A stretch of DNA of 64,000 nucleotides from Firmicutes bacterium HGW-Firmicutes-15 (GTDB lineage: Bacteria; Bacillota; Syntrophomonadia; Syntrophomonadales; Syntrophomonadaceae). The notes below the pieces were generated by a model. It was not told where the DNA came from and searched no databases. It was given only the letters and a program-made list of their open reading frames with translations. A program made the position numbers and the translations under genes. The stretch is taken from positions 1 through 64,000 of the forward strand of contig PHAA01000027.1 in NCBI GenBank assembly GCA_002840245.1, in the 5' to 3' direction. Shown here one piece after another: positions 834 through 9,704 of this stretch; the stretch's first letter is position 1, and every line of letters starts with the position of its first letter.

Positions 834-3800
834 ATGACTCTGCATTTCCAGGCTTTTATTAATGACAAAATTGACGTACAGCTTACTAAGGAGTGGGATG
901 GTACCCTTATTGAGAAAGTTGAGGTATTCAAGGCTAAGAGAAGCTGGAAGCTTTATCTTCTGGTACCGCAACCCATTCCGGGGTTGGTTATTAGAAATAC
1001 GATCCAGCAGTTAAGTATTTGCCACGATTACCTGGACCATATAGAACTAAATATTGTACTTAAGGATGCGTCCGGGAGCGTGCGACGCATACTGGATGCC
1101 AGGAGGGATGATTTATCATCCTGTTTGTTTTTGGCGGGCAAGTTTATGCTGGAATTGCCATTGGTCAGATGGAAGATCGATAATACTCGGATAGATATTA
1201 TTTGCAGTGATGAGGCTCTTTATAATGAGATAATAGCCAGTGAAACCTGCCCTAGGTTAGCGGACTGGTTCTGGCAGGAGTATTCCATTCAGATTCTGGT
1301 GAGAGTTTTATATCAAGGTAAAGGCCAATCTAAGCATGAAATGGAAAACTGGCTTACCAATCGTCAACTCGATGTAATTGAACCCGGAAAGGATCTTGTC
1401 CTTTCAGGAAAGAGAGGTTTCAATTCCAGGGAAGGAAAAAAACTGGAACAAGCTATACACACGAAACCATTACCGGTTGCCGAACTAGAAGAAGGTATGA
1501 AGACAGCTGTAACTGAAGGAGAAATCTGGCATAAGGAAATCAACGTTTTAAAAGATGGCCGCTTAGTAGTGAGTTATTATCTTACGGATTTCAACGATAC
1601 TATTGTGATAAAGGCCTTTTTGGATAAAAGTGAGAATGACAGAATAAAGGTTGGAGACAGGATAAGGGTAAAAGGCAGTATTCGTTTTGATAGCCGTATG
1701 AAGGAAATTGCTCTATTTATGGATCAATATAAGCAACAGGAGATAGTTTGCCGCAACGACGATAACGAAGATAAAAGGATCGAGTTACATGCCCACACCA
1801 AGATGAGTGCTATGGATGGGTTGGCTGAGGTGAAGGACTTAATCCATAAGGCTGCTCTATGGGGACACCCTGCTATTGCGATAACAGATCACGGCTGTAT
1901 TCAGTCGTTCCCCGTAGCCTACGCTGCAGCCGAAGAGCACAATAAAAAAAGTGAAAATCGTATCAAGATAATATATGGAGTCGAAGGATATCTGGTAGAG
2001 GAAGATAAAAAGGAGCGGCCTTACCATATAATTTTGCTGGCTCGTAACCTGGTGGGGCTAAAGAATCTTTATAAACTTATAAGTATAAGCTACCTGGATC
2101 AATTTTACCGTCAACCCAGAATGCCTCGCCAGGAACTGCTTAAATATCGGGAGGGATTGCTCTTAGGGACAGCATGTGAAGCGGGTGAACTATTCCATGC
2201 TTTGCTGAGAGGTGCGGGTGATGATGAATTGACCTCGATAGCATCTTTTTATGACTATTTAGAAATTCAGCCCCGGGCTAATAATGCTTTTCTGATCAGA
2301 AAAGGCTTGGTGGAATCAGAAGCGGCATTGGCAGATATAAATAGGCGTATAGTTGAGCTAGGGCGAAAAATGAATAAACCGGTAGTTGCTACCGGAGATG
2401 TTCACTTTGTGGAACCCCATCATGAAAAATTTCGCACCATTATTAAGGCAGGCCAGGATTATGAAGATGCTGGCGAGAAACTGCCCTTATATTTTAGAAC
2501 TACAGGTGAAATGTTAGAGGAATTTTCCTATTTGGGTGAAGCTGAGGCTAGACGGGTAGTAATAGCAGATCCTGCCATTGTATCTAGCCTTATTGAACCA
2601 ATTAAACCTGTTCCCGATGGATTTTATCCGCCTCAAATTGAAACTGCCGAACAAGAAATTAATGAATTAACATGGGAAAAGGCTCATTCAATTTATGGGC
2701 GCCAGTTACCTGAAATTGTGGAAGAAAGAGTGAAAAGGGAATTAGCTTCAATCAATAAATATGGCTTTTCGGTATTGTATTTAATTGCCCATAAACTGGT
2801 AAGGAAATCCAATGAAGACGGCTACTTAGTTGGTTCCAGGGGTTCAGTAGGTTCTTCCTTGGTGGCATTTTTCACCGGTATAACCGAAGTAAATGCTTTG
2901 CCACCTCATTATATATGCCCTAACTGCTTTTATTGCGAATTTATCATGGATAATTCGGTGGGTTGCGGAGCCGATTTAGATGACAAAGTATGCCCCTCAT
3001 GCAGTGAAGAATTACATAAGAATGGTTTCGATATACCCTTTGAGACATTTTTAGGCTTCGAAGGAGATAAGGTACCGGATATCGACCTGAATTTCTCCGG
3101 TGATTATCAAAGCCGGGCACATCAATATGTAGAGGAACTGTTTGGCAGCCACAATGTTTTCCGAGCAGGAACCATATCGACTATTGCTGACAAGACTGCT
3201 TTTGGCTTTGTAAAGAAATATGCCGAGGGACTGGGAGTGGATCTAAAAGCCTCAGAAATGGCTCGTCTTTCCCAAGGTATTACCGGGGTAAGAAGAACCA
3301 CCGGCCAGCACCCGGGTGGATTGATTGTTGTTCCCAAGGACAAAGATATTTTAGATTTTACCCCTCTGCAGCACCCGGCTGATAACAAGGGATCCGGGGT
3401 TATCACTACCCATTTTGAATATCATGCTATAGGGGATCAGCTGGTTAAGCTAGATATACTAGGGCATGATGATCCCACAGTTATTAAGGAACTAGAGGAT
3501 TTGACTGGTATTAAGGCATCCTCTATAAGCCTTTCGGAAAAGGAGACCATGAGACTATTTTCCGGGGTTGAACCATTGGGGGTCAAGGCTGAGGATATCG
3601 ATTCCAGTGTCGGCACTTATGGAATACCGGAATTTGGAACGCGTTTTGTCCGGCAGATGCTGGAAGTTACCCGACCTACAACTTTTTCGGAACTAGTTAG
3701 GATAAGCGGGCTCTCTCACGGGACTGATGTATGGCTCAATAATGCCCAGAGCCTGATATCTGATAAATTGGCCACCTTGAATGAAGTAATATGTACTCGC

Positions 3801-4499
3801 GACGATATAATGACCTATTTGATTTATAAAGATATGGATAAGAATAAGGCTTTTGAAATCATGGAAAAGGTTCGCAAGGGAAAAGGCTTGAAACTTCCCG
3901 AGGTGGCTGAAATGGAGAAATGCCATATACCACCCTGGTATATAAATTCGTGCCAAAAGATAAAGTATATGTTTCCGAAAGCCCATGCTGTGGCATATGT
4001 AACTATGGCATTCCGTATTGCCTGGTTCAAAGTCTACTATCCGCTGGAGTTTTATGCCAGTTTTTTTGGTATTAGGGCTGAAGATTTTGAGGCGGAAACA
4101 GTATTGGGAGGATATGATTTGGTGCGGGAGCGAATCAAGGAGATTGAAGGGATGGGGCAAAATGCGCCGCAAAAAGACAAAAAACTGTTGACCATATTGG
4201 AACTGGCTATGGAAATGTATGTTCGGGGATTTCACTTTTATCCAGTAGACATTTATAAATCATATGCCCATAAATTTGTTGTAGCAGGTAAAGGGCTAAT
4301 TTTACCCTTTGCTTCTTTGCCTAATGTTGGAGCGGCTGCTGCTCAAGGTATTATGGACAGCCGGGATAATGGAGAGTATATATCTATCGAAGAATTTCAA
4401 GGAAGAACCCGCCTGAATAAAAGCGCAATGGATATTTTAAGAAAAGAAAATTGTTTTCCCGGCTTACCCGAGAAAACTCAGATTAGTCTTTTTGCCTGA
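834..4499 (+). CDS. polC: DNA polymerase III alpha subunit, PolC type, without the exonuclease domain
   Basis: The 1221-residue replicative polymerase has the PolC order: N-terminal domain, OB-fold (about 235-310), PHP domain opening with ELHAHTKMSAMDG (about residue 317), zinc site (CPNC...C...CPSC), polymerase core and C-terminal (HhH) region. The catalytic acidic residues are visible as PDIDLNF (D749, D751) and KLDILG (D874). The DEDDh proofreading exonuclease that normally splits the PHP domain is absent. The PHP sequence runs directly from YGVEGYLVEEDK (381-392) to RPYHIILLARN (395-405). In Bacillus subtilis PolC (1437 residues) roughly 190 residues sit at that point. The size difference fits a clean domain loss. 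The start has a GGAGGAA ribosome site. Confidence 0.95.
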   Translation: MTLHFQAFINDKIDVQLTKEWDGTLIEKVEVFKAKRSWKLYLLVPQPIPGLVIRNTIQQLSICHDYLDHIELNIVLKDASGSVRRILDARRDDLSSCLFLAGKFMLELPLVRWKIDNTRIDIICSDEALYNEIIASETCPRLADWFWQEYSIQILVRVLYQGKGQSKHEMENWLTNRQLDVIEPGKDLVLSGKRGFNSREGKKLEQAIHTKPLPVAELEEGMKTAVTEGEIWHKEINVLKDGRLVVSYYLTDFNDTIVIKAFLDKSENDRIKVGDRIRVKGSIRFDSRMKEIALFMDQYKQQEIVCRNDDNEDKRIELHAHTKMSAMDGLAEVKDLIHKAALWGHPAIAITDHGCIQSFPVAYAAAEEHNKKSENRIKIIYGVEGYLVEEDKKERPYHIILLARNLVGLKNLYKLISISYLDQFYRQPRMPRQELLKYREGLLLGTACEAGELFHALLRGAGDDELTSIASFYDYLEIQPRANNAFLIRKGLVESEAALADINRRIVELGRKMNKPVVATGDVHFVEPHHEKFRTIIKAGQDYEDAGEKLPLYFRTTGEMLEEFSYLGEAEARRVVIADPAIVSSLIEPIKPVPDGFYPPQIETAEQEINELTWEKAHSIYGRQLPEIVEERVKRELASINKYGFSVLYLIAHKLVRKSNEDGYLVGSRGSVGSSLVAFFTGITEVNALPPHYICPNCFYCEFIMDNSVGCGADLDDKVCPSCSEELHKNGFDIPFETFLGFEGDKVPDIDLNFSGDYQSRAHQYVEELFGSHNVFRAGTISTIADKTAFGFVKKYAEGLGVDLKASEMARLSQGITGVRRTTGQHPGGLIVVPKDKDILDFTPLQHPADNKGSGVITTHFEYHAIGDQLVKLDILGHDDPTVIKELEDLTGIKASSISLSEKETMRLFSGVEPLGVKAEDIDSSVGTYGIPEFGTRFVRQMLEVTRPTTFSELVRISGLSHGTDVWLNNAQSLISDKLATLNEVICTRDDIMTYLIYKDMDKNKAFEIMEKVRKGKGLKLPEVAEMEKCHIPPWYINSCQKIKYMFPKAHAVAYVTMAFRIAWFKVYYPLEFYASFFGIRAEDFEAETVLGGYDLVRERIKEIEGMGQNAPQKDKKLLTILELAMEMYVRGFHFYPVDIYKSYAHKFVVAGKGLILPFASLPNVGAAAAQGIMDSRDNGEYISIEEFQGRTRLNKSAMDILRKENCFPGLPEKTQISLFA

Positions 4500-4661: not shown

Positions 4662-5120
4662 ATGGCCATAGGATCGATAAATTCGGAGATTAGGTCTTTA
4701 ATTGCTAGCAAACTTCAGGAAAAGGGAATAGATTTATATGAGATCGAATACAAAAAGGAACCGGATGGGCAGGTTATAAGAATCTATATTGACACTCTAG
4801 AAGGTGTAGATGTGGGTATCTGTGCGAGGGCTACCAGAGCCGTTAAAGAATACATAGATACAGAGAGTAACCTTTATTACGATTATCTAGAAGTATCGTC
4901 TCCAGGTATTGACCGGATATTAAAGACTGATAGCGATTATGAAAGATTTCAGGGTGAAAGAGTATTGGTAAAGACTTCCCAGCTTGTAGAAGGGCAGAAA
5001 AAGTTTGTCGGTATTCTAGCTAATACTAACCAAGATATATTAAGCATCGAAATCGAGGGTAATCTGATGCAAATATCCCGAGATGCTATATCGATCGTAC
5101 GGCTCCATCCAGATATATAA
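4662..5120 (+). CDS. rimP: Ribosome maturation factor RimP
   Basis: RimP (152 residues) assists late assembly of the 30S subunit. The family's central motif is visible as LEVSSPGIDRILKTDSDYERF (about 76-96), followed by the C-terminal SH3-like domain. Length is normal for the family. The gene heads the conserved rimP-nusA-ylxR-ylxQ-infB cluster and stops 9 bases before nusA. The ATG is preceded by a GGGGGTGG-type ribosome site. Confidence 0.95.
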   Translation: MAIGSINSEIRSLIASKLQEKGIDLYEIEYKKEPDGQVIRIYIDTLEGVDVGICARATRAVKEYIDTESNLYYDYLEVSSPGIDRILKTDSDYERFQGERVLVKTSQLVEGQKKFVGILANTNQDILSIEIEGNLMQISRDAISIVRLHPDI

Positions 5121-5129
5121 GGAGGAAGA

Positions 5130-6188
5130 ATGATGTCCAATGAACTCATGCAGGCATTGAAGGAATTGGAAAAGGAACGGGGAATTCCACAGGAAGCGTT
5201 AATTGAAGCAATTAAGTCAGCTTTAAATACAGCTTACAAAAAAAATTTCGGTACCACTCAGAACGTAAGTGTGGAATTGAACAAAATGACCGGCGAGGTG
5301 CAAGTTTATGCTCAGAAGCGGGTTGCACAGCAAGTTAAGGATTCTTGTATGGAAATATCATTGGAAGAAGCTCAAATAATTGATCCCACCTGTGAAGAGG
5401 ACACAATGGTCAATGTGGAGATAACTCCTTCGAATTTTGGCCGGATAGCCGCTCAGACAGCTAAGCAGGTAGTAGTACAGAAACTGCGGGAAGCCGAACG
5501 GATCTTGATATATGAAGAGTTTTCTGAACGAGAAGGAGAAGTAGTAACCGGAACCATTCAAAGGATTGAATCTAAATCGGTAGTGGTAAACCTAGGAAGA
5601 ACCGAGGGAATTATGTTGCCTTCAGATCAAATATTATCTGAAAGGTATGAAGTTGGGCAAAGAGTTAAAGGTTATATATATGAGGTCAAAAACACCTCCA
5701 AGGGTCCGAGCGTATTTATTTCTCGAACTCATCCCTATTTTTTAAAACGTCTATTTGAACTTGAGGTTCCAGAGATATACGAAGGATTAGTTGAAATTAA
5801 ATCTATTGCCAGGGAAGCCGGTTCACGCTCCAAAATATCTGTGCATTCTATTGATGATAAAATCGATTCCGTTGGGTCTTGTGTTGGCCCCCGCGGTATT
5901 AGAGTACAGAATATTGTCACTGAGTTAAATGGTGAAAAAATCGATATTATCAAGTACCATAGAGACCCTGATAAATTTATAGCGAATGCCCTAAGTCCTT
6001 CCAAGGTATTGTCAGTTTGGATAGATGGAGAGGGGAAAAAAGCCCGGGTGGTTGTACCTGATTATCAACTCTCCTTAGCAATTGGCAAAGAAGGGCAAAA
6101 TGCCCGCTTAGCTGCCAAACTTACTGGCTGGAAAATAGATATTAAAAGTGAAAGCCAAGCTGAAGAGGAGAATGAACCCGATGATTAA
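5130..6188 (+). CDS. nusA: Transcription termination/antitermination factor NusA
   Basis: NusA (352 residues) binds RNA polymerase and nascent RNA and modulates pausing, termination and antitermination. The N-terminal polymerase-binding domain, an S1 domain (about 135-200), and two KH domains are all visible. The first KH has [21 protein letters not shown] and the second has [21 protein letters not shown]. The long acidic C-terminal repeats of proteobacterial NusA are absent, as usual in Firmicutes. An AAGGAGGAAG ribosome site precedes two adjacent ATGs (5130 and 5133), so the exact start could be either. The 3' end overlaps ylxR. Confidence 0.96.
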
Positions 6189-6477: not shown

Positions 6478-6822
6478 TTGAAAAGAGTATATAACCTCAT
6501 AGGCATAGCCCAACGAGCCGGAAAGACCTCTTCGGGCGCTATGGCGGCCAGAACTAGTCTGATAAGGCATAGGGCTTGTATTTTGCTTATGAGTAAAGAT
6601 ATAGCTGAAAATACCAGGGAATTATTGATGAAAAGTTGTGCCAAACAGCACATTCCCTGGCTGGTGCTAGGGGATAAATATGAAATAGGTGCCAGTATTG
6701 GTAAAGCCTATCGAGTAGCCGTTACCATAAACGATTCGGGTATGGCTAGTGCTATTCTGAAAGCAGTAGAGGCAGCTGCAAAAGAGGCAAAAACTATGGG
6801 GGTGGTTGAATGGCCAAAATAA
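6478..6822 (+). CDS. ylxQ: L7Ae/L30e/S12e-Gadd45 family RNA-binding protein YlxQ
   Basis: A 114-residue L7Ae-fold protein, homologous to Bacillus YlxQ, which occupies the same place between ylxR and infB. The family binds kink-turn RNA; the cellular role of YlxQ is not settled. Visible features are LIGIAQRAGKTSSG near the N-terminus, the central CILLMSKDIAENT strand-turn and GASIGKAYRVAVTINDSG near the end. The TTG at 6478 is preferred because AAAGGTGAG (6462-6470) is a well-placed ribosome site; a GTG at 6466 would leave none. It overlaps infB by 13 bases. Confidence 0.9.
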   Translation: MKRVYNLIGIAQRAGKTSSGAMAARTSLIRHRACILLMSKDIAENTRELLMKSCAKQHIPWLVLGDKYEIGASIGKAYRVAVTINDSGMASAILKAVEAAAKEAKTMGVVEWPK

Positions 6823-9704
6823 GAGTGCATGAACTGGCGAAAGAACTCGGGATACCCAGCAAAGAGATGGTTGATACCCTGCAAAAGTTGGGGTTGGATC
6901 TAAAAAATCACATGAGTACGATGGAAGAATCACAGGCTTCCTGGGTTAGAAAGCGGCTGGGTGAAAAAAATGAACCAGCCCCTCAAATAGGACGGCCAGT
7001 TGCTCGGGATGAGCACCCAAGTGCTGAACCCCGGAAGGGCTCTACCACTAGTTCTCCCAGGGTGCAGCAGAATACGGGAATAAATAGAGCGGTTCAACCA
7101 AGACCAGGAAGTAATACCCCAAGCGGACCGGTGGGGCAAGATCCGAAAAAGATATCCCAAGGTAGACAATCGGGTTCACAACCTGATCAATCAGGTATAC
7201 AAGCAATTCAGCCTCCTGAGTTCGAAAGACGTGGTAATGAGGTTAGAAACAATCAGCCCAGACCGATGAGTGGCTCTGATAATCGGCAGGGTGATGTTAG
7301 GCCAGGAGTTGGTCCCAGACCGACAAATGGTCCTGATAATCGGCAGGGTGCCCCTAGACCAGGAATTGGCCCCAGGCCAACCAGCGGCCAGGATAATAGA
7401 CCGGGTGCTCCTAGACCAGGAACTGGCCCCAGGCCAACCAGTGGCCAGGATAATAGGCCGGGTGCTCCTAGACCAGGAATTGGCCCCAGGCCAACCACCG
7501 GCCAGGATAATAGGCAGGATGCCTCTAGACCAGGAACTGGCCCCAGGCCAACCAGTGGCCAGGATAATAGGCAGGGTGCTCCTAGACCAGGAACTGGCCC
7601 CAGGCCAGCCAGTGGCCAGGATAATAGGCAGGGTGCTCCTAGACCAGGAACTGGCCCCAGGCCAACCAGTGGCCAGGATAATAGGCCGGGTGCTCCTAGA
7701 CCAGGAACTGGCCCCAGGCCAACCAGTGGCCAGGATAATAGGCCGGGTGCCCCTAGACCAGGAACTGGCCCCAGGCCAGCAGCTTCAACCCCCACCAGTA
7801 ATCCCGGATTCGGACCAAATAAAAAGCCCGGGTTTGCCAATACTCAGGGTAAACCGCCCAAGAAAGCGGTTCCCCCTAAACCCCAGTTTACTAAAGATTA
7901 CAGCCGACCCCAGAAGAAGGGTAAACATAAAAAGAAAAAAGAGGAAGCAATTTTAGTAACGCCTGATTTAATTACTGTAGGTGATTCCCTCCAGGTAAGA
8001 GAATTAGCAGATAGGCTTGCTAAAGGTTCAGCTGAAATCGTTAAAAAGTTAATGGAACTTGGTATAATGGCAACTATCAATCAGGAGATTGATTATGATA
8101 CTGTAGAGATTATTGCCAGCCTTTATGACGTGGCGGTTGAACGTGAAATCCTCGAAGAACAAAAAATACTGGAAGAAATCGTTGACAGCAAGGAAAGCCT
8201 CTTGCCCCGTTCTCCCATTATTACAGTAATGGGCCATGTTGATCATGGTAAGACCTCATTGCTTGATAAGATTCGTAAAGCAGATGTGGTTTCGGGAGAA
8301 GCCGGGGGGATTACTCAGCATATTGGAGCATATCAGGTAACAGTTAATGATAATCGCATAACATTTATTGATACTCCAGGGCATGCGGCGTTTACGGCTA
8401 TGAGAGCCAGAGGTGCTAACCTTACTGATATAGTAATCCTGGTGGTGGCAGCTGATGACGGGGTTATGCCTCAGACCATAGAAGCGATCAATCACATCAA
8501 AGCTGCTAAAGTTCCCTTTGTAGTGGCTTTGAATAAAATGGATAAGCCCGATGTTAATCCAGACAAGGTAATGCAACAGCTGACTGAATACAATATAGTG
8601 GCTGAAGAGTGGGGCGGCGACACCATGTTTGTACCGGTATCTGCGAAAACTGGTATGGGTATTGATAACCTTTTGGAGAGGGTACTGTTGGTGGCTGAAA
8701 TGCATGAAATAAAGGCTAATCCAGACCGACCCGCCGAAGGCGTCGTGATAGAAGGCGAACTCGATAAAGGGCGCGGCGCGGTAGCCACTTTACTAGTTCA
8801 GAAGGGTACTTTAAAGGTAGGGGACTCCATAATATGTGGGTTTACCTGGTGTAAAGTAAGAGCTATGACTGATTACCGAGGACGTAAGGTTGATATGGCC
8901 TTGCCCTCCATGCCGGTAGAAATTACTGGTTGGTCCGATGTTCCCGAAGTAGGAGAAAAAGTTCAGGTATGTGACGAAAAGATAGCCAAGGAGATAGCCA
9001 GTCTGAGATTGAGTGAGAAGAAGCTAGAAGATCAAAAGCGTAACAGTAAGATTTCGCTGGATGATTTCTACAAGCAAATGGCAACGGGAATGAAAGAATT
9101 GAACCTGATAATAAAGGGCGATGTTCAGGGTTCGATTGAAGCCTTGGCGCAATCATTGCTCAGGCTAAGTACCGGTGAGGTCAAGGTGAATGTTATTCAT
9201 TCAGCAGTAGGAGCCATTACCGAAACCGATGTGATGTTGGCTTCGGCATCCAATGCGATTATTATTGGATTCAATGTTCGACCTGATGTGAAAGCCAGGA
9301 AATATGCCGAAGAGGAGAACATAGATGTTCGTCTGTACCGGGTAATATATGAGGCTATTGATGCTGTGAAGAAAGCTATGGAAGGGCTTCTTGATCCTGA
9401 GTACCGCGAGAAATATCTGGGGCGTGCAGAGGTTAGGGCTACCTTCAAAACGCCTAATGCCGGAACTATTGGTGGTTCTTATGTAATTGACGGCAAGCTA
9501 CAAAGAAATGCTAGCATGAGGGTATTGAGGGATTCAGTCATAGTTTATGAGGGGAAACTTTCATCTTTGAGGCGTTTTAAAGATGACGCTAAGGAAGTCG
9601 TTGAGGGTTATGAATGCGGGATTGGCATCAAAGACTTTAACGATATTAGAGAGGGCGACATTATCGAAGCCTATACTATGGAAGAAATTGCACGAAAACT
9701 TTAA
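6810..9704 (+). CDS. infB: Translation initiation factor IF-2 with a repetitive linker
   Basis: IF-2 (964 residues) is the GTPase that brings initiator tRNA to the ribosome. The first IF2_N domain is at about 1-52. A long Pro/Gly/Arg-rich linker follows, including nine 19-residue repeats (residues 153-323). A second IF2_N domain is at about 390-440. The GTPase has GHVDHGKT (about 473-480), DTPGH and NKMD. Domains II-IV, ending near [15 protein letters not shown], complete it. The protein is longer than Bacillus IF-2 (716 residues) because of the linker. Translation is probably coupled to ylxQ. Confidence 0.97.
7266..7778 (+). repeat. Nine tandem 57-bp repeats within infB
   Basis: Nine in-frame 57-bp units encode variants of the 19-residue unit [19 protein letters not shown]. 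The first two units are the most diverged ([10 protein letters not shown]..., TNGPDNRQG...). The later ones differ by only a few bases. This pattern fits recent tandem expansion by slippage or unequal recombination, and copy number is likely to vary between strains. Confidence 0.95.

Follow-up and report, generated by a model that had tools for sequence, protein, structure and literature searches.

An exonuclease-less PolC native to a Syntrophomonas-like bacterium, with the PHP domain as best candidate proofreader

The window, a stretch of 64,000 nucleotides from Firmicutes bacterium HGW-Firmicutes-15, carries an open reading frame encoding a full-length PolC of 1221 aa (834..4499, + strand, as are all further coordinates given for polC and its parts). 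The protein matches the PolC models NF001688 (1473 bits) and TIGR01405 (1356 bits) over their full length and above both cut-offs, and with its catalytic Asp triad and zinc-site cysteines it is a PolC-type DNA polymerase III. Pfam matches to PHP, DNA_pol3_alpha, finger and HHH_6 and a weak one to OB place its domains in the order NTD/OB, PHP, polymerase core and helix-hairpin-helix. The OB-fold domain (aa 228-294; 1515..1715) stays below the Pfam cut-off (PF01336, E 2e-4) and is homologous to that of the Geobacillus PolC structure 3f2b. The Pfam-covered part of the PHP domain (aa 317-472; 1782..2249; PF02811, E 1.6e-34) forms one uninterrupted stretch. The polymerase core (2646..4223) retains the catalytic residues D749, D751 and D874 and the zinc-site residues C695, C698, C720 and C723, so that the first-pass annotation was right in describing the core and its zinc site as intact. 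A tandem helix-hairpin-helix (aa 1133-1211; 4230..4466; PF14579, E 3.7e-10) and a predicted C-terminal sliding-clamp-binding motif, QISLF (aa 1216-1220; 4479..4493), complete the protein.

Downstream of polC lie rimP and nusA (4662..6188, + strand), neighbours conserved with chromosomal polC, followed by ylxR, a gene for an L7Ae-family protein, infB (identified by sequence only) and rbfA. A position before a rimP-nusA-type operon is the usual chromosomal location of polC, and this gene order thus marks the gene as the chromosomal polC native to its Syntrophomonas-like host. A search of the genome found no second PolC, with or without an exonuclease, and the one described here is its sole PolC. 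As a separate observation, the infB frame (6810-9704) contains a 57-bp tandem repeat at 7278-7778 of the window (8.8 copies, 91% matches), which encodes a GPRP/GQDNR-rich N-terminal part of IF-2.

In canonical PolC, such as that of Bacillus subtilis or the Geobacillus protein 3f2b, a DEDDh 3'-5' exonuclease (Exo) is inserted in a loop of the PHP domain, and this insertion has been termed a hallmark of PolC (PMC3919608). The query lacks it. Between the metal ligands E384 and H398 there are 13 residues (aa 385-397; 1986..2024), as against 205-219 in exo-containing PolCs, and BLAST alignments with the latter split at residues 390-397 of the query, opposite about 200 additional residues in the subject. 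The Geobacillus protein otherwise aligns with 1126 bits over query aa 220-1221, with the same catalytic and PHP residues. A Pfam scan of the whole 1221-aa protein found RNase_T (PF00929, DEDDh) nowhere, by which relocation of Exo to another part of PolC is rejected, and the single PF00929 match of the genome sits on another contig than polC. The claim that had drawn attention to the locus, a PolC with an unbroken PHP domain and no 3'-5' exonuclease, is thereby borne out. An assembly deletion is excluded as the cause, as the closest named relative, the PolC of a Syntrophomonas sp. (L006), is 92% identical to the query and also lacks Exo, as do all other Syntrophomonadaceae PolCs found.

The query therefore belongs to the exo-less subset of PolC rather than to canonical PolC. 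This architecture is already known: Timinskas et al. (2013/14) found the Exo insertion to be absent from 6% of PolCs, all but one of them in Clostridia and Negativicutes, and described the genomes concerned as pairing PolC with DnaE1 (PMC3919608). Those proteins have the same NTD-OB-PHP-Pol3-HhH order and clostridial hosts with DnaE1, and there is no structural difference between them and the query, which likewise has no Exo, a Syntrophomonas-like host and a DnaE1 encoded in the same genome. A 2026 survey gives three active proofreaders as the usual state in Clostridia, in passages that do not dwell on exo-less PolC (PMC12926913). What is new here is quantitative evidence for the commonness and repeated evolution of exo-less PolC, together with the hypothesis of proofreading by PHP only.

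How common is exo-less PolC? In an even draw of 398 genomes of the same phylum, each at least 90% complete, a strong PolC match was found in 281 and none in 117. Exo state, scored from match extent and open-frame length, was absent in 142, present in 132 and decayed in two; five PolCs ending at contig edges were left out of the classification. Exo-less PolC is thus found in 142 of 276 classifiable PolC genomes, which bears out the earlier suggestion that some clostridial lineages may share it; this share is much higher than that in PMC3919608, although it hinges on sampling, so that it and the 6% of 2013 do not allow a direct comparison. A full alignment of 233 PolCs matches the classification for the members included. 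By family, 54 are exo-less only, 48 exo-containing only and three mixed, and Exo state is nearly fixed within families. A census that required the RNase_T insertion for a protein to count as PolC (PMC11963600) would, by that rule, miss about half of the species sampled here that have PolC. A candidate loss of PolC in a genome of the query's genus (G261) was rejected, as its nusA match is missing too, probably because of an assembly gap. In one mixed family (f49), two PolC lineages, one exo-less and one exo-containing, are distant from each other (L178 and L179 versus L180 and L181), and it looks as if one PolC came by transfer.

Exo-less PolCs are not one clade. On an unrooted tree of 143 PolC cores, from which the insert columns were excluded, 13 changes of Exo state are required, at least seven of them forced by well-supported branches, and forcing exo-less monophyly makes the tree 411 log-likelihood units worse (AU p ~1e-59; LG+G4, quick search). 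Distances between Exo domains correlate with those between PolC cores (r = 0.75; 0 of 2000 permutations), which indicates that Exo and PolC have for the most part moved together and favours one insertion followed by many losses, though the direction of change is only deduced since the tree is unrooted. Decay can be seen within one genus (g96) of family f20, other genomes of which have an intact Exo: two of its PolCs (L160 in G126 and L154 in G243) contain a 198-residue insert in which AxA stands in place of DxE and the DEDDh residues further along are lost, and their sister (L159 in G097) has only a 39-residue remnant or linker at this place, with the PHP site complete in all three alike. Judged by these residues, the insert of the two is a dead, decaying Exo. 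The reverse history, in which the ancestral PolC had no Exo and acquired it later, perhaps by several insertions in the same loop, would suit the scatter of exo-less PolCs over an unrooted tree; however, the insertion site is identical everywhere, Exo co-varies with the core and an existing Exo is seen to decay, and we regard this history as highly improbable. The data fit repeated loss of a single ancestral Exo insertion, and these many independent losses are a point in which the present sample differs from PMC3919608.

What, then, could proofread for such a polymerase? The first-pass annotation had proposed a separate exonuclease, the PHP domain or a second DNA polymerase III. A stand-alone DEDDh (DnaQ/epsilon-like) protein taking over for PolC, DnaE1 or both has some points in its favour: the genome does encode a single intact DEDDh protein, 229 aa long, which could serve in trans, and DEDDh proteins other than PolC occur somewhat more often in exo-less than in exo-containing genomes (102/142 versus 68/124; Fisher p 0.005, ignoring relatedness), but these PF00929 counts include DinG and other fusions. 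Moreover, the 229-aa protein does not reach the NCBIfam cut-off of any DnaQ family, and its gene adjoins a transporter gene away from polC. PF00929 detected no DEDDh protein in 8 of the 13 PolC-bearing genomes of the query's family, in any of the four of the same order, single-contig genomes being among these, or in 40 of the 142 exo-less genomes. A looser search of 19 genomes with the TIGR00573 dnaQ model gave weak or no matches in the PF00929-empty ones, two of which have a partial 18-bit match (E 0.002) within a 905-residue frame. With so many exo-less genomes and most of the family devoid of a detectable DEDDh protein, a stand-alone DnaQ cannot be a general substitute, and such a takeover is unlikely. 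The suggested separate exonuclease is present in this genome but fails as a general replacement.

The nine PHP metal ligands, whose conservation had been proposed as a check, are all present in the query (H319, H321, D352, H353, E384, H398, C448, D522 and H524; 1788..2405; HHDHEHCDH), which align to the solved PolC structure and make up the complete site HHDHEH[C/H]DH characteristic of PHP-exonuclease polymerases. The site is complete in 156/156 exo-less PolCs aligned, the query counted in, and in both PolCs with decayed Exo. It is broken in 15 of 75 PolCs with Exo, mainly by D to N changes; since these breaks are only about three events on the tree (independent pairs), their confinement to PolCs with Exo is suggestive but falls short of significance. 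Among the 158 PolCs without a live Exo, all have the catalytic Asp triad and 148 a clamp motif of the class QxxL[FY]. The query genome also encodes both a DnaE1, above the NF005298 cut-off and with a complete PHP site, and a second DnaE (L003, G000:C26), whose PHP site HHDHEHCNH has one D to N change and which reaches the cut-off of no specific NCBIfam model. In exo-less or decayed-Exo genomes without a DEDDh protein, the DnaE1 PHP site is complete in all 28 that are readable over its whole length. MutS is encoded as well, which gives replication the further safeguard of mismatch repair.

In Mycobacterium tuberculosis DnaE1 (PMC5636811), which shares the nine-residue metal site with the query, proofreading by PHP is an established activity of a site with nine ligands and three zincs. 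The former is a DnaE1 with proven proofreading, and we infer by analogy that the PHP domain of PolC would proofread; PolC and DnaE1 would presumably divide the work between them. The PHP sites of the two polymerases are the best candidate proofreaders, though the function of the PHP metals may instead be structural or pyrophosphatase-like. The account we prefer is that the DEDDh Exo, once inserted in the PHP loop, would have been lost long ago in the query lineage, in one of many independent losses; that the native exo-less PolC would stay an active polymerase bound to the clamp; and that proofreading would be performed most likely by its own three-metal PHP site, together with that of DnaE1. 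We give this account as a whole a probability of roughly 0.7. Its extension to many clostridial lineages, most relatives of the query included, in which PolC and DnaE1 would proofread only via PHP with no cellular DEDDh protein after repeated loss of the ancestral Exo, is an even bet. A different solution, raised in PMC3919608, is that the bulk of replication falls to DnaE1, PolC being confined to a limited role in which its proofreading no longer matters. The complete DnaE1 with its intact PHP site would suit it, as would the 117/398 genomes without a PolC match, but exo-less PolC keeps its catalytic residues, its nine-residue PHP site and usually its clamp motif, conservation unlike that of a polymerase freed from fidelity constraint, and we consider this solution improbable.

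Should two replicases in such bacteria be proofread by PHP sites alone, these bacteria would be natural tests of PHP replacing a DEDDh exonuclease in PolC, a polymerase that is also a drug target (ibezapolstat). As a minor observation, one PolC of the sample (L149; G311:C1:1541021-1544619), in a single-contig genome, is interrupted by stops, with its frame split, in the Exo/PHP region and is either a pseudogene or the product of a sequencing error.
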